A model generated the notes under the pieces. The model was not told the DNA's origin. It worked only from the letters and a program-made list of their open reading frames with translations, and ran no database searches. The position numbers and the translations under genes were made by a program. Of a stretch of 37,967 nucleotides of DNA, positions 3,243 to 14,214 are shown in pieces; the first letter of the stretch is position 1; each line of letters begins with the position of its first letter. The DNA is taken from the IMG/VR virus record IMGVR_UViG_3300022857_000025, positions 1 through 37,967 of that record; one strand, given 5' to 3'. The stretch is from a virus.

Positions 3243-3262
3243 AACATGTTGTATTTTTACCA

Positions 3263-3286
3263 CGGGACTGCAAAGTCCCGTTTTTT
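3263..3286 (+). terminator. intrinsic terminator after the carbamoyltransferase gene
   Basis: A perfect 7-bp stem CGGGACT (3263-3269) / AGTCCCG (3274-3280) with a GCAA tetraloop, followed by six T (3281-3286). It ends the carbamoyltransferase transcript. The loop and stem bases also form the -35 of the next promoter. Confidence 0.85.
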
Positions 3287-3296
3287 ATGGTATAAT
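3268..3296 (+). promoter_or_regulatory. sigma70-like promoter embedded in the terminator
   Basis: CTGCAA (3268-3273), a 17-bp spacer and TATAAT (3291-3296) preceded by TGG (extended -10). The -35 sits in the terminator loop and the -10 right after the U-tract. The same layout recurs at 3427, 8624 and 9093. Transcription would start near 3303. Confidence 0.68.
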
Positions 3297-3302
3297 AGCT
3301 TC

Positions 3303-3434
3303 ATGTTACAAATTCTCCTATTCATTGTCATAGTATTCCTTATGATCCCAGTAATACTAAAGGTTACAATTTTTCTGTGGTTATCCTACGAAGTGTTGTT
3401 TACAAGCATCATTAATACCCTTACACTTGCGTAG
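3303..3434 (+). CDS. small hydrophobic membrane protein, 43 aa (possible leaderless gene)
   Basis: ATG 3303 to TAG 3432-3434 encodes 43 residues, nearly all hydrophobic (LQILLFIVIVFLMIPVILKV, then FLWLSYEVLF): one or two membrane helices. The predicted transcription start of the embedded promoter falls at or near the ATG, so the mRNA would be leaderless. The stop codon lies inside the next hairpin. A longer in-frame start at 3246 would require translation through the terminator and is unlikely. Alternatively the 3303-3440 stretch makes a small RNA rather than a protein. Role unknown; a holin-like role cannot be excluded. Confidence 0.4.
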   Translation: MLQILLFIVIVFLMIPVILKVTIFLWLSYEVLFTSIINTLTLA

Positions 3435-3440
3435 GGTATT
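3414..3440 (+). terminator. terminator-like hairpin lacking a U-tract
   Basis: An 8-bp perfect stem AATACCCT (3414-3421) / AGGGTATT (3433-3440) with an 11-base loop TACACTTGCGT. It is nearly the same hairpin as at 9080, but the following bases are GTGTTCGTG instead of a T run, so termination is probably weak or lost. Confidence 0.5.
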
Positions 3441-3456
3441 GTGTTCGTGTTATAAT
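3427..3456 (+). promoter_or_regulatory. sigma70-like promoter of the 3487 gene
   Basis: TTGCGT (3427-3432) in the loop of the hairpin, an 18-bp spacer and TATAAT (3451-3456) preceded by TGT (extended -10). It lies about 30 bases upstream of the next gene. Confidence 0.68.
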
Positions 3457-3486
3457 AACTCATACATTAGGAAAAAGGAATTGAAA

Positions 3487-3786
3487 ATGTCTAAGTTAAC
3501 TGAATACACAATTGAAATCTACAAAGCAGACAAGCGTATCAAACGTGATGAGCGCCACGGCAAAAACAAGGCAGGCTTGCGTTTTATTAAAGTGATGGAC
3601 TATGCTCCCAGCACCAAAGACTACATTGAGTGTCTTGCAGAAGACTTTCGTAGAGATGGCGTAGTAGCCAACGTGTTTGAAACCTTTGTGACCAAACAAA
3701 ACTTAATGGGTGGCATAGAGTTTCAAGAGCGTTATGACACGCCCTACTACTGTAGCCCAAGCTCAGAAACTTACTGGAGAATGTAA
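3487..3786 (+). CDS. conserved hypothetical phage protein, 99 aa
   Basis: I start the gene at ATG 3487 rather than the longer in-frame start at 3427, because AAAAGGAA (about 3473-3480) lies just upstream and the -10 at 3451-3456 would fall inside the longer ORF. The protein begins MSKLTEYTIEIYKADKRIK, an alternating pattern typical of a beta strand, followed by a charged region and FRRDGVVANVFETFVTK. The Tyr/Thr-rich C-terminus ends CSPSSETYWRM. It resembles small conserved proteins of marine T4-like phages. No function known; the first gene of its promoter. Confidence 0.75.
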   Translation: MSKLTEYTIEIYKADKRIKRDERHGKNKAGLRFIKVMDYAPSTKDYIECLAEDFRRDGVVANVFETFVTKQNLMGGIEFQERYDTPYYCSPSSETYWRM

Positions 3787-3853
3787 TACGCAAGTATTAC
3801 AAACTTTTGGTTGACCCATATTTACCATTTTAGATTAATACTCGATAATACAC

Positions 3854-4084
3854 ATGTCCAAACAAATTTTTATCATCTACGACAAGAAAACATACGAGGT
3901 CTTGAAAACCAAGACCAACTCTGGCGTCAGTGTGCAATACTACGGTATGGGTGCTGCTCGGGGAGCGTTGACTCGCTTATGTAAGAAGAGCGGTATATTT
4001 CCTAATGATCCTTCATACCCTCTGTACCAATACACTATTGCAGATCGTGACTACTATACAAAGATGACTGGAAAGACTATATGA
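3854..4084 (+). CDS. hypothetical protein, 76 aa
   Basis: Small basic protein (MSKQIFIIYDKKTYEVLKTK...) with a strand-like start and a Tyr-rich end. The stop overlaps the next start in an ATGA, so the two genes are coupled. A possible promoter is TTTACC with GATAAT at 17-bp spacing just upstream, but it is weak, and I see no good ribosome binding site. Family not recognised. Confidence 0.6.
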   Translation: MSKQIFIIYDKKTYEVLKTKTNSGVSVQYYGMGAARGALTRLCKKSGIFPNDPSYPLYQYTIADRDYYTKMTGKTI

Positions 4085-4332
4085 GCACTTTAACCGAATA
4101 TTTTGATAAGAAGGCTATCACCGAGAAGTACTCTATCGGGGATCGTGTTGCTGGAAAATTTGGTAAGATCCCTTTCATGGGAACCGTTGGTAACTGTAGT
4201 AGCATGAATGCCGAGGGTGTGTCGGTTGCTATTGTGCATCTTGATTTGCCAATGGTTATCAATGACACGACTAGTCATTTCATTAGCGTGTTGAGCAGGA
4301 CCTTGCGCCCTTTGAAAGAATTGAAATTATGA
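4081..4332 (+). CDS. hypothetical protein, 83 aa
   Basis: Starts in the ATGA overlap with the previous gene and ends in an ATGA overlap with the next: a translationally coupled small-gene chain. The sequence has a YSIGDRVAGKFGKIPFMGTV segment (residues 17-36) that looks like a small beta-barrel, followed by further strands. Such short beta-barrel proteins are common in marine T4-like phages. No function assigned. Confidence 0.66.
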   Translation: MSTLTEYFDKKAITEKYSIGDRVAGKFGKIPFMGTVGNCSSMNAEGVSVAIVHLDLPMVINDTTSHFISVLSRTLRPLKELKL

Positions 4333-4568
4333 ATCGCAAATTTACAGCCGAGTTTGAAGATTATGAATGTGACAATGATCGCCGCTCATACTGGACGGTC
4401 ATAGAATGGGATGAGGGAGATAATATGGGTAATCGTTCAGGGCGGCAATTTCAACCCGCAACTATATACACTGAAGAAAGTGCCAGGCAAGTTGCAGATA
4501 GTATGCAGGCTGCGTGGGAGCGCGAGCAGTACCTAAATCAAGAAAGTGCGTTTGACTACCGTGGCTAA
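4329..4568 (+). CDS. hypothetical acidic protein, 79 aa
   Basis: A 79-residue acidic protein rich in Asp, Glu, Trp and Tyr, with a C-terminal helix (EESARQVADSMQAAWEREQY). It starts in an ATGA overlap with the preceding gene and overlaps the following GTG-start gene. Family not recognised; the call is supported by the tight overlaps and continuous coding. Confidence 0.62.
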   Translation: MNRKFTAEFEDYECDNDRRSYWTVIEWDEGDNMGNRSGRQFQPATIYTEESARQVADSMQAAWEREQYLNQESAFDYRG

Positions 4569-4788
4569 TATTCACTTCCTACGCAAAATCGCCGCAGATG
4601 AGTTGATGGACACTATGTTCTTTGCAACTGGCCAGCGGGCGACTAAAGTTAAGTCTCGCTCGCATTGGGACTTGAGCAACGAGTACTTCAAAGTTAAGAT
4701 CGTTACCAATAGAAACATCACGGTCAATGGTGCTAAGTGTAAAACCATCCACGATGCGAAGTGGGAATTACAGGATTTGATATCATAA
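4546..4788 (+). CDS. hypothetical protein, 75-80 aa, GTG start
   Basis: The frame opens with GTG at 4546 (80 aa); a second GTG at 4561 gives 75 aa beginning MANIHFLRKIAADEL and overlaps the previous stop by only 8 bases. Neither has a strong ribosome binding site, so the start is uncertain. The protein is basic with a helical start and strand-rich middle (EYFKVKIVTNRNITVNG). Unknown function, part of the coupled chain leading to DNA ligase. Confidence 0.55.
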   Translation: MRLTTVANIHFLRKIAADELMDTMFFATGQRATKVKSRSHWDLSNEYFKVKIVTNRNITVNGAKCKTIHDAKWELQDLIS

Positions 4789-4789
4789 C

Positions 4790-4969
4790 ATGGCAATGAA
4801 ATTTAGAAATTGGGTTCAAGAAAAGTACTACGAGAACCAAGAGGAACTATTAGGGTGGTCTGAGATTATCCCATCTGACCATACACTGTCAAAGTACTTT
4901 AACGCATATCGCTGGTGGTTAAAACGCGAATACCGCTTTTACCTAAATGGTAAATTGAACAAAGACTGA
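4790..4969 (+). CDS. hypothetical protein, 59 aa
   Basis: ATG 4790 immediately follows the previous stop, and TGA 4967-4969 lies 3 bases before the ligase start. The 59 residues are rich in Trp, Tyr and charged side chains (KFRNWVQEKYYENQEELLGW, then YRWWLKREYRFYLNG). The composition and the exact fit between two genes make it a real gene in my judgement. No family recognised. Confidence 0.68.
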   Translation: MAMKFRNWVQEKYYENQEELLGWSEIIPSDHTLSKYFNAYRWWLKREYRFYLNGKLNKD

Positions 4970-4972
4970 TAT

Positions 4973-6268
4973 ATGGCTATACTAAACATACTTGATGAAC
5001 TAGCATCTGACGCGAGTCGTAACTTTAAGATCGCTACTCTTGAGAAGTATAAGAACAACGACACACTTCAAACGGTTATCTTTCTTGCTCTAGATCCGTT
5101 CACACAGTTCTATATTCGCAAGATCCCAAAGTACATACGAGGTATCCATACTATCACTTTCGTAAACGCATGTAAACAGTTGAAGAAATTGTCCTCTCGT
5201 GAGTACACGGGTAATGCTGCAATTGACATGTTAGCATCGATGTTGGAAAGTCTACCCCAAGATGATGCAAGGGTAATTGAGAGGATTATCCAGAAAGACC
5301 TAAAGTGTGGAGTTGCTGCTTCTACGGTCAATAAGGTATGGCCTGGTATGATTCACGAGTATCCATGTATGCTCTGTACCGCATACGATGAAAAGGTTAT
5401 AAGTAAGTTTGAGTTTCCTGCGATGGTGCAACTTAAGATGGATGGTATGCGCTTTAATGCTATTGTTAAAGATGGTGCTGTAGAGTTCCGCAGTCGCAAC
5501 GGCAAAGAGATTAACCTATTGGGTAACTTATCCCAAGAGTTTATTACACTTTCCGAGGGAAATGACTTAGTCTTTGATGGTGAGTTGGTATTGTTGTCTG
5601 AGGATGGTTCATACATGGATCGTCAGACGGGTAATGGTATTCTTAACAAGGCAGTCAAAGGAACAATATCAGCAGATGAAGCGATGCTAGTTTCTGCAAC
5701 ACTTTGGGATGTTATACCATATGAAGAATTTAAAAATGGCGTTTGTACATTTCCGTACGAAGATAGGTTTGCTCGTATTAAGATCTCTCGTTTTTCGGCT
5801 GGAAAGTTGCGCATCGTCACTAACACATATGTCGAATCGCTTGATCAAGCACGAAGCATCTTTAACGCTTACCTTGCTGAAGGTGAAGAGGGAATTATCC
5901 TCAAATCAATGACTGGTATCTGGGAAGATAAGCGTACCAAGTCTCAGATTAAATTTAAAGCGGAGTTAGATTGTGATCTTAAAATCGTTGATGTGCAAGA
6001 AGGTACTGGCAAGTACTCAGGAATGCTTGGAGCAGTTATCGCTGAATCTGCAGACGGACTCCTTAAAGTCTCTATCGGTTCTGGTTTTTCTGACGCTATG
6101 CGAACTGAGTTTTGGTCTGATCGCGATTTTTTACTTGCTAAAATTGTCGCAGTGAAGTATAATGCTAGAATAAGTAATAAACAAGGCGAGGAGTCGTTGT
6201 TCTTACCTATCTTCCTAGAGATTCGTGAGGACAAGACTTCTGCAGACATGACAAAGGATATTAAATGA
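4973..6268 (+). CDS. 30: ATP-dependent DNA ligase (T4 gp30-like)
   Basis: A 431-aa nucleotidyltransferase-type ligase sealing 3'-OH/5'-phosphate nicks, used in lagging-strand joining and repair. Motif I KMDGMR has the adenylated lysine K155; motif Ia SRNGKE (174-179), motif III FDGEL (201-205), motif IV EGIILK (306-311) and motif V QIKFK (325-329) follow in order. The last about 95 residues form the OB-fold. The N-terminal about 140 residues match the helical DNA-binding region of T4-type ligases (T4 has 487 aa). The start follows the 59-aa gene by 3 bases, and the stop overlaps the next ATG. All catalytic motifs appear intact. Confidence 0.96.
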   Translation: MAILNILDELASDASRNFKIATLEKYKNNDTLQTVIFLALDPFTQFYIRKIPKYIRGIHTITFVNACKQLKKLSSREYTGNAAIDMLASMLESLPQDDARVIERIIQKDLKCGVAASTVNKVWPGMIHEYPCMLCTAYDEKVISKFEFPAMVQLKMDGMRFNAIVKDGAVEFRSRNGKEINLLGNLSQEFITLSEGNDLVFDGELVLLSEDGSYMDRQTGNGILNKAVKGTISADEAMLVSATLWDVIPYEEFKNGVCTFPYEDRFARIKISRFSAGKLRIVTNTYVESLDQARSIFNAYLAEGEEGIILKSMTGIWEDKRTKSQIKFKAELDCDLKIVDVQEGTGKYSGMLGAVIAESADGLLKVSIGSGFSDAMRTEFWSDRDFLLAKIVAVKYNARISNKQGEESLFLPIFLEIREDKTSADMTKDIK

Positions 6269-6507
6269 TAGATGCATTTGAACTAGATAACGAACTAACA
6301 CAAACACAGAAACAAGACTTGCGTATAGTATTGTCACTAAACACACCAGAAGAAATTCAAGACTGGATTGATCATGTCGGTTGGGGTGACTTTGAATATG
6401 GTATGTCTCTTATTGAAGTTGCTGCGCTAAAGCAGTTAGAGAAAGATACTGCCCATGATGATTGTATCGACGCAAAGATTGCATTGTCGAGATGCTTGGA
6501 TATATAA
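6265..6507 (+). CDS. hypothetical acidic protein, 80 aa
   Basis: An acidic, mostly helical 80-residue protein (FELDNELTQTQKQDLRIVLS..., TPEEIQDWIDHVGWGDFEYG). It starts within the ligase stop (ATGATAG) and its 3' end overlaps the 2OG oxygenase start. Family not recognised. Its place behind the ligase suggests co-expression with replication genes. Confidence 0.65.
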   Translation: MIDAFELDNELTQTQKQDLRIVLSLNTPEEIQDWIDHVGWGDFEYGMSLIEVAALKQLEKDTAHDDCIDAKIALSRCLDI

Positions 6508-7046
6508 AAGTATACGACAACGTATTAGATAATATAGATTGTAACAAGTTGATAAAGGGTTACGAGGAAAATCTGCATAAGGCAAGGATGATCGACTCTC
6601 CTGGAGACAAATACTATTTCATGAAGTGTTCAGATAATCTAAGATGGGATTCGTACTCAAATAAGGTTGTTGAACTTATGCAGTTGTTGTATAAACAATA
6701 TCGGCAAGACACTGGTATGAAGATCAACCGTCAGGTTCCAGACAAATATGTATTGGAAGATCCTTACATGGAAAAATATAACCCCGACCACGATTTTCGT
6801 AAACGAATACACTCCGACTCCCAAGACTCATTCACATCTCATCGATTCTTGTCCATGACAATATACTTGAATTCAGTTAGTCCGGGTGGTGAAACAGACT
6901 TCACACCAAATATAAAATTTAAGATGAACCCTCAACAAGGGTCGGTTATAATATTCCCTTCTTATTGGGGATACTACCATAAAGAAAATCATTGCTCTGG
7001 CCAAACACCTAAGTACACGATCAACACACATTTAAAATATTTGTAG
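6492..7046 (+). CDS. 2-oxoglutarate/Fe(II)-dependent oxygenase (prolyl 4-hydroxylase-like)
   Basis: I use ATG 6492 (184 aa); a TTG at 6462 gives 10 more residues but overlaps the previous gene more. The fold signature is present: RIHSDSQD with H107 and D109 as iron ligands, a strand TIYLN, GGETDF (132-137), GSVIIFPS (150-157), then YYHKENH with H163 the likely third iron ligand and K174 in PKYTINTHL the likely 2-oxoglutarate anchor. These enzymes hydroxylate proteins, nucleic acids or small molecules, and are common in marine T4-like phages where substrates are mostly unknown. The family call is firm, the substrate open. Confidence 0.85.
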   Translation: MLGYIKVYDNVLDNIDCNKLIKGYEENLHKARMIDSPGDKYYFMKCSDNLRWDSYSNKVVELMQLLYKQYRQDTGMKINRQVPDKYVLEDPYMEKYNPDHDFRKRIHSDSQDSFTSHRFLSMTIYLNSVSPGGETDFTPNIKFKMNPQQGSVIIFPSYWGYYHKENHCSGQTPKYTINTHLKYL

Positions 7047-7055
7047 GAAATTCAT

Positions 7056-7295
7056 ATGTCATCTGACGCAGCACCAATTCCAGACTTACCTAGTCCATAC
7101 GAGTTTAAGAAGATCCGAGTTAACAAGATGCTCAACGCATTATACAATGGAGACGAGGTTATCATAGAACGCTGGTGGAAATCGCCTAATGTGTATATGA
7201 GTATGGAAATCCCAAGAGTGTTATTTGAAACTAACCAAGACAAGGTCGTCGAAGTAGCACATGCAGAAGTTAGAAGACGGCTGGCTAAACAATGA
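7056..7295 (+). CDS. hypothetical protein, 79 aa
   Basis: An AGGAAA element lies just before ATG 7056. The protein has a Pro-rich start (SSDAAPIPDLPSPYEF), then a basic helix and a Trp-Trp segment (EVIIERWWKSPNVYM). It ends with a helical basic tail (VAHAEVRRRLAKQ). The stop overlaps the next gene's ATG. Unknown function. Confidence 0.66.
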   Translation: MSSDAAPIPDLPSPYEFKKIRVNKMLNALYNGDEVIIERWWKSPNVYMSMEIPRVLFETNQDKVVEVAHAEVRRRLAKQ

Positions 7296-7486
7296 ACGCA
7301 TTAGCACAATGGATATTGATTTTTAATATCAATGTCGCGGAAGTACCATCCGCAGCATACCTAAACTCTCCAGTCGTTATGGACAGTTTTCCTTCTCAGG
7401 AGCGATGCGAAACTGCACTACAACAACTCTCTCGAACCTTTGAAGGTACTTCGAGCAAGGGGTATTGTGTAGGCGAATCCCGATAA
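7292..7486 (+). CDS. small protein with hydrophobic N-terminus, 64 aa
   Basis: Coupled to the previous gene by an ATGA overlap. Residues 1-18 (MNALAQWILIFNINVAEV) are hydrophobic and may form a weak signal peptide or membrane anchor. The remainder is polar and carries two Cys (39 and 59) that could form a disulfide outside the cytoplasm. No family recognised. Confidence 0.55.
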   Translation: MNALAQWILIFNINVAEVPSAAYLNSPVVMDSFPSQERCETALQQLSRTFEGTSSKGYCVGESR

Positions 7487-7492
7487 CCCCTA

Positions 7493-7498
7493 TATAAT
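7493..7498 (+). promoter_or_regulatory. possible -10 element ahead of the 7530 gene
   Basis: A TATAAT hexamer lies 32 bases upstream of the 7530 start, in the gap following the previous stop. No good -35 hexamer is found at 16-18 bp, so this is a weak candidate. Confidence 0.3.
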
Positions 7499-7529
7499 TA
7501 TTTACCTAAACATTAACGGAGATTATACC

Positions 7530-7892
7530 ATGTTTACATTTATTAAAAACCTATTTAAGAGCAAACCCCTAGAAGAAGTTCTAGATTCTGAACCTGTGCG
7601 CATTACCCCTACACTGGAACTAGTTGCACCAGTTGTTGAAGAAGATACTCCTGCTGCATTAATCCCTCAACCGGCATGGCCATTTCCCACTGAGGAAAAA
7701 CCTGTTGCCACGCAAGAAGTGAAGAAAACACTTCCGAAGAAAAATAATAACTATAAGAAGAAGAACTCCGCTGTAAAGAAACCAACACCTGTCCAGAAAC
7801 CTACTAATATACCAGCACCAACTGATCCACTTGCTCCTAATGCTCCACAGAAACGCGCTAAGAAGCAAGCAGTTCGTCCAAAGAAAAAGTAA
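7530..7892 (+). CDS. Lys/Pro/Ala-rich low-complexity protein, 120 aa
   Basis: A ribosome binding site GGAG lies about 10 bases upstream. Residues 1-18 form a short amphipathic segment (MFTFIKNLFKSKPLEEVL); residues 19-60 are acidic and Pro-rich. From residue 61 the chain is Lys/Pro/Ala-rich with blocks such as KKTLPKKNNNYKKKNS and ends in KKK. The basic tail resembles histone H1-type or ribosomal-tail composition and could bind DNA, RNA or polymerase; this is inferred from composition only. It lies directly upstream of an exonuclease gene. Confidence 0.68.
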   Translation: MFTFIKNLFKSKPLEEVLDSEPVRITPTLELVAPVVEEDTPAALIPQPAWPFPTEEKPVATQEVKKTLPKKNNNYKKKNSAVKKPTPVQKPTNIPAPTDPLAPNAPQKRAKKQAVRPKKK

Positions 7893-7924
7893 TTTTTGTA
7901 ATTTAGATTGAGAGAAACTATAAT

Positions 7925-8512
7925 ATGTTTATGTTTGATATTGAAACCCTCGGAGTAGAATCTACTACGGTAATTCTGTCTGCGGGTATCATTTACTTTG
8001 ACCCAGAAAAAGATGCCGACATCAGTTATAAAGAACTAGTTGAACGCGGGCTGTTCGTTAAACTGGATGCTAAAGACCAACTAAAGCGCCTGGATCGCAC
8101 CATCACTAAATCCACCTTGGATTGGTGGGCAAAGCAGGGCGAGTACCAACGCAGTCAGAGTTTCGACACTAAACCAGACGATATCAAGGTAGAAGAAGGC
8201 ATTGCTGCGATCAAGAAGTACATTAACAAGTATGCTCAAGGTAAGTTGAACAACGAGACCATGTGGGCGAGAGGGTCTTTGGACCAGATGGCGATCGACA
8301 GCCTAACAAATAAGTGCGGCGTGGAACCGATTATCAACTTTGCTCGCTGGCGTGATATGCGCACTGCAATTGATATGCTCACGGGTAGTACTAATGGTTA
8401 CTGTAAAGTTGCCAATTTAGACATGAACTCAGTACTAAAGCACCATCCTGTAGACGATTGCGCCCTTGACATCCTAATGTTGTTGCGTGGTATGCCAGAA
8501 CCGGAGCAATAA
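7925..8512 (+). CDS. dexA: DEDD-type 3'-5' exonuclease (DexA-like)
   Basis: A 195-aa protein with the RNase H-like exonuclease signature: DIET at 5-8 (D5, E7), WARGSLDQ (114-121, D120), and HHPVDDCALD at the end (H173/H174 with D177/D178). These are the metal-binding residues of DEDDh exonucleases. T4 DexA (227 aa) degrades single-stranded DNA 3' to 5'; phage relatives have also been annotated as exoribonucleases, so the substrate (DNA or RNA) is open. The start has only a weak GAGA purine stretch upstream. The gene is followed by a structured non-coding stretch and a terminator-promoter cassette. Confidence 0.82.
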   Translation: MFMFDIETLGVESTTVILSAGIIYFDPEKDADISYKELVERGLFVKLDAKDQLKRLDRTITKSTLDWWAKQGEYQRSQSFDTKPDDIKVEEGIAAIKKYINKYAQGKLNNETMWARGSLDQMAIDSLTNKCGVEPIINFARWRDMRTAIDMLTGSTNGYCKVANLDMNSVLKHHPVDDCALDILMLLRGMPEPEQ

Positions 8513-8515
8513 AAC

Positions 8516-8607
8516 CGATTGTAAGGAGATTACCCAGCCTGGGTGATACTAACATGTCCCTAAGAGGTTTAAACTCCTTAAATCGCTCCTGTTGTATTTA
8601 AACAACG
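8516..8607 (+). ncRNA. possible structured RNA or attenuator downstream of the exonuclease gene
   Basis: AAGGAG (8523-8528) can pair with CTCCTT (8574-8579), extended by CGAT (8516-8519) with ATCG (8582-8585). Inside lies a tight hairpin (ACCCA 8532-8536 / TGGGT 8540-8544). A 15-codon ORF (ATG 8554 to TAA 8599-8601, ending RSCCI) lies in the same stretch, and a GTTGT/ACAAC hairpin closes it (8591-8606). It could be a leader with a sequestered ribosome binding site, or simply 3' UTR structure. Confidence 0.35.
8591..8606 (+). repeat. GTTGT...ACAAC hairpin (family copy 1)
   Basis: GTTGT (8591-8595) pairs with ACAAC (8602-8606) across a 6-base A/T loop. It resembles the other hairpins of this type at 9059, 9938 and 10235 and, like them, lies just upstream of a promoter. 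Confidence 0.5.
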
Positions 8608-8614
8608 ATTAATA

Positions 8615-8642
8615 ACCCTACCATTGCGTAGGGTATTTTTTT
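8615..8642 (+). terminator. intrinsic terminator
   Basis: Stem ACCCTAC (8615-8621) / GTAGGGT (8628-8634) with loop CATTGC, followed by A and a run of seven T. It ends the ligase-exonuclease region transcript. Confidence 0.8.
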
Positions 8643-8652
8643 GTGTTATACT
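8624..8652 (+). promoter_or_regulatory. sigma70-like promoter embedded in the terminator
   Basis: TTGCGT (8624-8629) spans the terminator loop and the start of the descending arm. A 17-bp spacer containing the T-tract and TATACT (8647-8652) with extended -10 TGT follow. It drives the 8685 and 8879 genes. Confidence 0.72.
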
Positions 8653-8684
8653 GAACTCTGTTTAGTTAATAAGGAGTTTTTCAA

Positions 8685-8849
8685 ATGTCTTCCCCTTTCA
8701 TAGTCCGTATTACTGATGAATTTTTATCTGTATTTACAGTAGAAGCCCAAACAAAAAAAGAAGCTATTAAAATAGTTACTATGTGGTTAAATAATTCAGA
8801 TTCTACCCCAATTTACGAAATTGTAATTGAAATTAATGAAATTGTTTAA
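8685..8849 (+). CDS. small hypothetical protein, 54 aa
   Basis: ATG 8685 follows a perfect AAGGAG (8671-8676) behind the cassette promoter. The 54 residues alternate strand and helix (SPFIVRITDEFLSVFTVEAQ, then KKEAIKIVTMWLNN, then YEIVIEINEIV), a compact beta-alpha-beta pattern. Codon use is very AT-rich. No family recognised, but promoter, ribosome binding site and pattern make it a good gene. Confidence 0.75.
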   Translation: MSSPFIVRITDEFLSVFTVEAQTKKEAIKIVTMWLNNSDSTPIYEIVIEINEIV

Positions 8850-8878
8850 ATCTATTGTATTAATTAAGGAAATTTAAA

Positions 8879-9058
8879 ATGAATATTAATAAATTAACTA
8901 ATTGGGAATTATTTAAAGTTGCTCCGCATATATTTGCTGAACGAATGGTTAAGACTCGTAGGATCTCCGCTAAGGAACTTTTAGATGCATGTTTGACTAC
9001 CATGACCAGTGAGATGATCGAGGAGATGCTAGAAGACCTTGAACTAGCACCCGAATAA
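8879..9058 (+). CDS. small helical acidic protein, 59 aa
   Basis: AAGGAAAT precedes ATG 8879. The protein is helical with an acidic C-terminal part (TSEMIEEMLEDLELAPE), and is probably co-transcribed with the 8685 gene from the cassette promoter. A TGTTG/CAACA hairpin and an intrinsic terminator follow directly after its stop. Family not recognised; could be a small regulator binding a host protein, but nothing shows this directly. Confidence 0.73.
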   Translation: MNINKLTNWELFKVAPHIFAERMVKTRRISAKELLDACLTTMTSEMIEEMLEDLELAPE

Positions 9059-9076
9059 TGTTGCATTAATACAACA
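9059..9076 (+). repeat. TGTTG...CAACA hairpin (family copy 2)
   Basis: TGTTG (9059-9063) and CAACA (9072-9076) flank an 8-base loop and begin right after the stop codon of the 8879 gene. Confidence 0.6.
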
Positions 9077-9079
9077 AAT

Positions 9080-9111
9080 AATACCCCTACACTTGCATGG
9101 GGTATTTTTTT
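9080..9111 (+). terminator. intrinsic terminator
   Basis: Stem AATACCCC (9080-9087) / GGGGTATT (9099-9106) with the 11-base loop TACACTTGCAT, followed by a T run to 9111. The loop differs by one base from that of the hairpin at 3414-3440. Confidence 0.82.
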
Positions 9112-9121
9112 GTGTTATACT
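9093..9121 (+). promoter_or_regulatory. sigma70-like promoter embedded in the terminator
   Basis: TTGCAT (9093-9098) in the terminator loop, a 17-bp spacer and TATACT (9116-9121) with extended -10 TGT. The sequence after the -10 (AGTATCATAGTTTGAAA) is shared with the promoters at 9972 and 10269. It drives the Gp88-like gene. Confidence 0.74.
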
Positions 9122-9918: not shown

Positions 9919-9937
9919 GATGGGTTCATAACCCATC
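9919..9937 (+). terminator. hairpin after the Gp88-like gene (terminator-like, no U-tract)
   Basis: A perfect 8-bp stem GATGGGTT (9919-9926) / AACCCATC (9930-9937) with a CAT loop, followed by TGTTGC rather than a T run. It may stabilise the 3' end or terminate weakly. Confidence 0.5.
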
Positions 9938-9955
9938 TGTTGCAAAAATACAACA
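9938..9955 (+). repeat. TGTTG...CAACA hairpin (family copy 3)
   Basis: TGTTG (9938-9942) and CAACA (9951-9955) around an A-rich 8-base loop, directly abutting the preceding hairpin. Confidence 0.6.
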
Positions 9956-9971
9956 ACTGAGAAAATAATGC

Positions 9972-9999
9972 TTGCAAGTATCCATTTTTGTGGTATACT
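9972..9999 (+). promoter_or_regulatory. sigma70-like promoter of the 10032 gene
   Basis: TTGCAA (9972-9977), a 16-bp spacer ending TTTTTGTGG, and TATACT (9994-9999) with extended -10. The block 9961-10013 is almost identical to 10258-10308 upstream of the 10327 gene. Confidence 0.72.
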
Positions 10000-10031
10000 A
10001 GTATCATAGTTCAAAACAAAGAGAGGTTACC

Positions 10032-10256
10032 ATGTATCGCATACCCCGAGTATCAACATACCAAGTTGAGTACACTGCATTAGATAGTAATAAAGTAGTA
10101 CAAGAGCAGCGCACCTTCAATGAGTTCCATGCGCGTGAAGTTGGAACAGTACTTGCTAATGACGGTTTGAGCGTTCGCGCGGCAGAGATGCTAGTCCAAG
10201 GATGGAACAATGTGTCAACTAATGGGGTATATTCTGTTGCATTTTTGCAACATTGA
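10032..10256 (+). CDS. hypothetical protein, 74 aa
   Basis: AGAGAGG precedes ATG 10032. The protein has a strand-rich N-terminus (STYQVEYTALDSNKVVQEQR) and a helical middle (HAREVGTVLANDGLSVRAAEMLVQ); this looks like a small alpha/beta domain. A perfect inverted repeat overlaps its last codons. Single-gene unit under its own promoter. Family not recognised. Confidence 0.7.
   Translation: MYRIPRVSTYQVEYTALDSNKVVQEQRTFNEFHAREVGTVLANDGLSVRAAEMLVQGWNNVSTNGVYSVAFLQH
10235..10252 (+). repeat. TGTTGCA...TGCAACA perfect inverted repeat (family copy 4)
   Basis: A 7-bp perfect palindromic arm pair (10235-10241, 10246-10252) with a TTTT loop. It lies inside the last codons of the 10032 gene, so it is maintained together with coding sequence. 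Confidence 0.65.
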
Positions 10257-10268
10257 TGAAAATAATGC

Positions 10269-10296
10269 TTGCAAGTATCTATTTTTGTGGTATACT
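10269..10296 (+). promoter_or_regulatory. sigma70-like promoter of the 10327 gene
   Basis: TTGCAA (10269-10274), a 16-bp spacer and TATACT (10291-10296). It is a near-identical duplicate of the promoter at 9972. Confidence 0.72.
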
Positions 10297-10326
10297 AGTA
10301 TCATAGTTTGAAAAAAAGAGGTTCAT

Positions 10327-13585: not shown

Positions 13586-14193
13586 TTATGATCCAACCAT
13601 ATGATGCATACTCATATTACATGGCGATCAAATTACATTTTGAGCGCGATGGGTATGACGCTCTGAAATATAACTTTAAAAGTTCTGCAACACCCAAGGC
13701 ATTCTTGGGTCGTAAGGACAAGTATCACTTCGCAAAGATAGCAAAGAAGTTCACTCAACCAAAAGACTTGGTGGAATTCTATGTTTCTAACTTCTCGCGT
13801 GGTTCTAAATGGGTTGGCGACATGGTAGAGGATGGTGATGTTCACTACCTTGCATGGAAAAGATACTCTGACTCTATGAAATATCGTTTCACAAACGATA
13901 TAGATACTATGGTAAACTATGCAGATATGAAGGGTCTTAAATTTGACGGACTCTTCTTATCTACTACTGACGATGCGCATCCGCACATTGTCAAACTACT
14001 TCTTCAAGAAGATATATCCCTGGAGACAGTGGTAATCATCGAGAAGATGTTGGGATTCACTAAACGATTGAACAAGTCAATAACGGAAACACTAGTGTGG
14101 CCAGATTTGTCTAAGAAGATTGTGAAGATGACTCCCTTTGTGAGTGCAGACCTACCAGTGATGAAAAAAATCATCGTTGAAAAGTTTGCATAA
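13582..14193 (+). CDS. 59: gp59-like loader of the replicative helicase
   Basis: A 203-aa protein (T4 gp59 is 217 aa). Characteristic features are the N-terminal MIQPYDAYSYYMAIKLHFER, a basic stretch around residues 28-50, AKKFTQPKDLVEFYVSNF, and the C-terminal PHIVKLLLQEDISLETVVII with the helix FTKRLNKSITETLVWPDLSK. Gp59 binds forked DNA and gp32 and loads gp41 helicase during origin- and recombination-dependent replication. The order gp33-gp59-gp32 is as in T4 and supports the call. Its start overlaps the gp33 stop, and the gp32 promoter begins in its last codons. Confidence 0.9.
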   Translation: MIMIQPYDAYSYYMAIKLHFERDGYDALKYNFKSSATPKAFLGRKDKYHFAKIAKKFTQPKDLVEFYVSNFSRGSKWVGDMVEDGDVHYLAWKRYSDSMKYRFTNDIDTMVNYADMKGLKFDGLFLSTTDDAHPHIVKLLLQEDISLETVVIIEKMLGFTKRLNKSITETLVWPDLSKKIVKMTPFVSADLPVMKKIIVEKFA

Positions 14194-14214
14194 TTTGCGA
14201 TACTGTGTTATAAT
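14186..14214 (+). promoter_or_regulatory. sigma70-like promoter of gene 32
   Basis: TTGCAT (14186-14191), a 17-bp spacer and TATAAT (14209-14214) with extended -10 TGT. The -35 overlaps the last codons of gene 59. It belongs to the same TTGC-type family as the cassette promoters but lacks the hairpin. Confidence 0.72.

Follow-up and report, generated by a model that had tools for sequence, protein, structure and literature searches.

Compact elements combining a terminator with a promoter are already known from T4-type phages, where they are termed promoter early stem-loops (PeSLs). According to published accounts, those of phages RB49 and phi1 are composite promoter-terminator motifs by which modules are shuffled (Arbiol 2010, doi 10.1093/gbe/evq006; Comeau 2014, doi 10.1093/gbe/evu129). 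The DNA of RB49 presents this design as TTGACA-(GGGGATC)GGT(GATCCCC)-TATACT, with the hairpin filling the 17-bp spacer and either TATACT or TATAAT as the minus 10, in at least five places. A further parallel is provided by the haloarchaeal virus HGTV-1, in which promoter stem-loop motifs composed of a promoter-like box and an inverted repeat precede many ORFs (PMC3950731); these contain an archaeal TATA box, in contrast to the sigma70 promoter of the locus analyzed here, and the likeness drawn here is one of design.

The DNA under study (the window) is a viral stretch of 37,967 nucleotides (IMG/VR record IMGVR_UViG_3300022857_000025), in which families of baseplate hub/lysozyme, DNA ligase and exonuclease indicate a T4-like myovirus of the T4 superfamily. 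The T4-like baseplate hub/lysozyme is accompanied by other T4-type genes, and UvsY, translational regulator and gp32 families were found in one relative (G006). A megablast search of INPHARED with the window's initial 25 kb returned zero matches, and thus no close cultured phage at the DNA level. The phages of this group are uncultured, and the relatives recovered are IMG/VR environmental contigs, for which simple ORF calls were used. Several loci were drawn from overlapping searches. The sequences of the relatives are partly non-independent, so that the counts reported for them overstate the number of events.

Six cassettes joining a hairpin to a promoter were identified within 3.2-10.3 kb of the window, around ORFs of 43-249 aa (Table 1). 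Four of them, between 3263 and 9121, had been proposed in an earlier note as hairpins followed by an extended minus 10. All four could be read directly; their minus 35 lies inside the loop or next to it, at spacings of 17, 18, 17 and 17 bp, matching the 17-18 bp put forward, and with a T run in three, the 3414 element being the exception. Direct reading also bears out the proposal that a terminator-like hairpin and a promoter form one compact unit, in which hairpin and minus 35 use the same bases. The remaining two cassettes had been missed, as had an 18-bp palindrome, TGTTGY-N6-RCAACA, present upstream of all six and degenerate in two copies.

Table 1. Positions of the six cassettes and of their upstream palindromes in the window.
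Feature	Position	Strand	Sequence	Description
Cassette 1	3262..3296	+	ACGGGACT-GCAA-AGTCCCGT (hairpin 3262-3281), then T6, then TGG-TATAAT	terminator-like hairpin of 8 bp (5 G-C), T6, CTGCAA (3268-3273) at loop, 17-bp spacer, extended -10 TATAAT (3291-3296)
Cassette 2	3414..3456	+	ATACCCT-loop-AGGGTAT (hairpin 3415-3439)	hairpin without T run, TTGCGT (3427-3432) in loop, 18-bp spacer, extended -10 TATAAT (3451-3456)
Cassette 3	8615..8652	+	ACCCTAC-CATTGC-GTAGGGT (hairpin 8615-8634)	hairpin with T7, TTGCGT (8624-8629) in loop, 17-bp spacer, extended -10 TATACT (8647-8652)
Cassette 4	9080..9121	+	AATACCCC-TACACTTGCAT-GGGGTATT (hairpin 9080-9106)	hairpin with T run, TTGCAT (9093-9098) in loop, 17-bp spacer, extended -10 TATACT (9116-9121)
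Cassette 5	9965..9999	+		weak A/T hairpin, TTGCAA (9972-9977), 16-bp spacer with T run, extended -10 TATACT
Cassette 6	10262..10296	+		weak A/T hairpin, TTGCAA (10269-10274), 16-bp spacer with T run, extended -10 TATACT
Palindrome 1 (degenerate)	3247..3264	+	TGTTGTATTTTTACCACG	one core mismatch, right half-site; 27 nt to -10
Palindrome 2 (degenerate)	3394..3411	+	TGTTGTTTACAAGCATCA	one core mismatch, right half-site; 40 nt to -10
Palindrome 3	8590..8607 (core 8591-8606)	+	TGTTGTATTTAAACAACG	40 nt to -10
Palindrome 4	9059..9076	+	TGTTGCATTAATACAACA	40 nt to -10
Palindrome 5	9938..9955	+	TGTTGCAAAAATACAACA	39 nt to -10
Palindrome 6	10235..10252	+	TGTTGCATTTTTGCAACA	39 nt to -10

The plus strand of the window contains the pattern TGTGNTATAMT five times, and the minus strand and the reversed control contain none. 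Repeat analysis ties the cassettes together: cassettes 3 and 4 lie in segments that are 84% alike over 63 nt (8590-8652 and 9059-9121), cassettes 5 and 6 in the two copies of repeat D1 (9936-10023 and 10233-10320, 84% over 88 nt), which have 37 nt in common with the 9080 element, and cassettes 2 and 3 fall in repeats D3 and D4, respectively. These repeats support the earlier suggestion that copies arose by duplication within the genome, and do not extend to the mobility that it attached to them; no recombinant junctions indicative of module shuffling were seen in the paralogous copies. Among shuffled sequences, none of 300 folded as well as the 3263 element (z = -4.5), and 10-12 of 300 did so for the other three of the first four. 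A generic scan for terminators in the window returned 12, against 12.8 expected, and with no overall excess of terminators the evidence for the cassettes resides in their repetition and conservation, and not in the hairpins as such.

The promoter is the constant part of the cassette and the strength of the terminator varies among copies, as illustrated by cassettes 5 and 6, which retain TTGCAA, the T run and TGTGGTATACT with fold energies of -2.7 and -5.1 kcal/mol, respectively, against -11 to -14 for the other cassettes. The canonical terminator form is found in only three of the six. With a weak hairpin in two copies, and with one of the four originally reported lacking a T run, the terminator does not hold as the defining part of the element, and termination at the window cassettes is predicted to be variable. 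In cassette 1 the minus 35 is poor, with three of six positions matching the consensus, and the promoter relies on its extended minus 10. A hydrophobic ORF of 43 aa (3303-3434) starts 6 nt downstream of the TATAAT of this cassette, so that the predicted message would be leaderless or nearly so, and its stop codon TAG (3432-3434) falls within the hairpin of cassette 2; a similar -10-N6-ATG spacing is found after the cassettes of L367, L368 and L369. An additional promoter, TTTGCA-18-TATAAT, is located at 14185-14214, and a near-identical sequence is present in L092/L365 at 9766.

The window cassettes resemble PeSLs in being composite promoters with a stem-loop, several of which are interspersed among small genes whose function is unknown in a T4-like myovirus. 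A strong sigma70-like promoter is joined to a stem-loop, as judged from sequence ("early" being a label of timing), and several copies occupy a region of small non-core genes. The internal order differs from the succession of minus 35, hairpin and minus 10 seen in RB49: there the hairpin lies inside the spacer and no T run precedes the minus 10, whereas in the window the minus 35 sits within the hairpin, and the spacer is occupied by the T run. Furthermore, the window cassettes carry the TGTTGY-N6-RCAACA palindrome, the strict form of which was not found in RB49. The window cassettes would work like PeSLs, with another internal order and an extra palindrome.

Homologous cassettes were identified on other contigs (L365-L369), in which neither TTGC in the loop nor TG-n-TATAMT varies, at a fixed spacing. 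The stems present a compensated change, from T-A in the 3414 element to C-G in the 9080 element, L365 and L367, as well as a one-base register shift in the 8615 element and L366; another candidate, L364, matched the cassette pattern but lacked the hairpin and was set aside. A second, unrelated family (L006, L033, L045 and L401) places a perfect TTGACA in the terminator loop, separated from TATAAT by 17 bp; here too a stem change is compensated (C-G to A-T, L033 versus L401). In the deduplicated set of 353 promoters from the relatives' loci, 16 have strong hairpins across the minus 35, compared to 3.9 expected and a maximum of 7 in 50 shuffles; this is about four times the frequency in shuffles and about twice that at random places in these genomes. 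The design is real and recurrent, but confined to a minority of promoters. At the orthologous site ahead of the 9150-9899 gene, a promoter is present without such a hairpin in most relatives whose sequence extends that far. The expectation that hairpin and minus 10 keep a fixed spacing in homologues thus stands for L365-L369 and fails for most of the orthologous promoters, and this failure is in part what the earlier note had said would count against it. A general tendency of terminators to be followed by a minus 10 was left out of the main evidence, since its excess over the mirror control is small (10 versus 3 strict, 7 versus 4 extended). In L368 (9110-9200) and L369 (13710-13800), a terminator-like stem of about 16 bp immediately precedes TGTGTTATAAT, with TTGTGG in its 3' arm, which constitutes another independent composite.

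The overlap of terminator and promoter might stem simply from the scarcity of intergenic DNA, with no joint function and no special element. The intergenic share of the relatives' genomes is just 4-7% by simple ORF call, and terminators immediately before a minus 35 also occur (e.g. RB49 at 45300), but economy of space accounts poorly for near-identical cassettes at different genes of the window and for columns that are invariant across contigs, and we regard it as a somewhat unlikely explanation. That the hairpin around the minus 35 is instead a promoter feature (an operator or an incidental inverted repeat) and not a terminator, a reading suggested by the many instances in relatives without a T run (L013, L025, L061, L079 and L081, and likewise cassette 2), appears improbable in view of the canonical T runs in three window copies and in the L006/L033/L045 family, and of arm sequences that diverge widely among copies while maintaining their pairing, unlike those of an operator.

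The palindrome, rather than the terminator hairpin, is the conserved part of the cassette and the best conserved partner of the promoter. In many of the relatives matching the 9150-9899 gene, the promoter upstream of it is preceded by TGTTGY-N6-RCAACA or a closely similar sequence. Across the relatives' loci, the core GTTGYN6RCAAC was found 233 times, versus 12 for the reversed pattern (about 20-fold), and 162 of 206 distinct palindrome places adjoin a sigma70 promoter on one or both sides, counting promoters at a match of at least 9/12, versus 1.9% of random places. The strict palindrome is present in 10 of 14 relatives, at 1-11 per genome, with none in the reversed control of the same scan. 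In the five relatives examined over their full length, nearly all promoter-bearing palindromes are co-oriented with the main direction of transcription. In addition, 117 of 131 palindromes in a separately fetched set, scanned with the gap restricted to 3-18 nt, have a minus 10 at the right place. A phage contig of jumbo size (G021, L235; 345,154 bases) contains eleven strict palindromes, with one in the reversed control, indicating that the palindrome is not restricted to one genome size class. On a distant phage-type contig (L343:4430-4580), three tandem units, each made up of a palindrome, a AGGGTAAACCCCTA-like repeat and TTGAC, are found within about 150 nt. The cultured cyanophage BUCT-ZZ01 was discarded as a further case, one of its two palindromes being inside a gene and the other having no sigma70 promoter after it.

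Such a palindrome could also be a second RNA hairpin, situated where the upstream message ends and serving in stop, processing or stability, in which case the whole element would be a plain PeSL, a stem-loop with an early promoter of the type already known from T4-type phages. The palindrome is indeed foldable (-3 to -9 kcal/mol), and that of cassette 4 sits just past a stop codon. Three tests favour a predicted protein site over a hairpin. The palindrome pair 5/12 is complementary 79 times, compared to 77.4 expected under independence, and complementarity of the inner pairs is below expectation; this lack of covariation at paired positions is the behaviour of a protein-binding DNA site and not of an RNA hairpin. 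On the sense strand, non-pairing C.A combinations (37) outnumber pairing U.G wobbles (23). Lastly, distances from palindrome to minus 10 are grouped around 30, 39 and 49, at intervals of about a helix turn; the distance peaks persist with any TATAMT and without a minus 35 requirement, and the autocorrelation rises again at lags of 9-10. In addition, a few palindromes are common to promoters on both sides. A plain PeSL consequently seems improbable. Conserved palindromic half-sites without base-pair covariation, and helical phasing relative to the promoter, are instead features of an operator, and the palindrome looks like an unrecognised docking site for a putative regulator, with TGTTGY-N6-RCAACA probably representing an undescribed phage operator.

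Class I CRP promoters rely on an upstream dimeric activator site. The arrangement described here is similar to them in that a sigma70 promoter is preceded by a palindrome, whose possible positions are spaced by about a helix turn, and differs in its half-sites and centres (about -50, -59 and -70). Most minus 35 hexamers of the palindrome promoters are near consensus, which on paper makes activation unnecessary. The simplest reading is that a dimeric regulator on the palindrome would contact RNA polymerase from one helix face, and both activation and repression fit this arrangement.

Candidates for the gene encoding this regulator were sought by presence/absence profile in six large genomes, which gave, as the candidates scanned, a glycosyltransferase, a peptide deformylase, a nucleotidyltransferase, an epimerase and unknown families, none of them a known DNA-binding family. 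A Pfam scan of 128 G006 proteins revealed no convincing regulator among the 25 most frequent families listed. A MazE/AbrB-like protein of G006 was rejected, as it is also present in G009, which has no palindrome, and neither G002 nor G003 yielded it. A host regulon was considered for a betaproteobacterial bin and likewise discarded; the only three palindromes of the bin lie on a single contig with a phage-type gene, which hints at a phage-encoded factor.

Our main reading, to which we assign a probability of roughly 0.6, is that these elements constitute a multi-copy regulatory cassette of T4-superfamily-like myoviruses. It would comprise the 18-bp palindrome, a sigma70 promoter with an extended minus 10, to be read by the host RNA polymerase, and, in some copies, an intrinsic terminator whose hairpin loop takes in the minus 35 and whose T run fills the spacer. 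The RNA of the upstream gene would end at the hairpin and the next transcript would begin just past the same element, while a dimeric protein on the palindrome, contacting RNA polymerase from one helix face, would act on the set of small genes as activator or repressor. More speculatively, a polymerase terminating at the cassette would sit on the next promoter and could restart there, given that polymerase that had terminated has been seen in vitro to start again from a promoter close by (PMC6978380).

With slightly better than even odds, a large group of environmental phages, with contigs ranging in size from about 40 kb up to a single one of 345 kb, has the putative operator in common, on one helix face ahead of some fifth to third of its consensus-like promoters, where it would mark a phage-specific regulon and, in some phages, be fused with a terminator into a single insulating cassette. 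Such a cassette would give T4-like phages a way to insulate many tiny genes in minimal space, and its placement of the next promoter atop the terminator may offer a natural setting in which to test whether polymerase is recycled once it has terminated (PMC6978380, PMC6978322). The palindrome itself would make gene control in uncultured environmental phages accessible from sequence, predicting a regulon, a phasing rule and a missing regulator.
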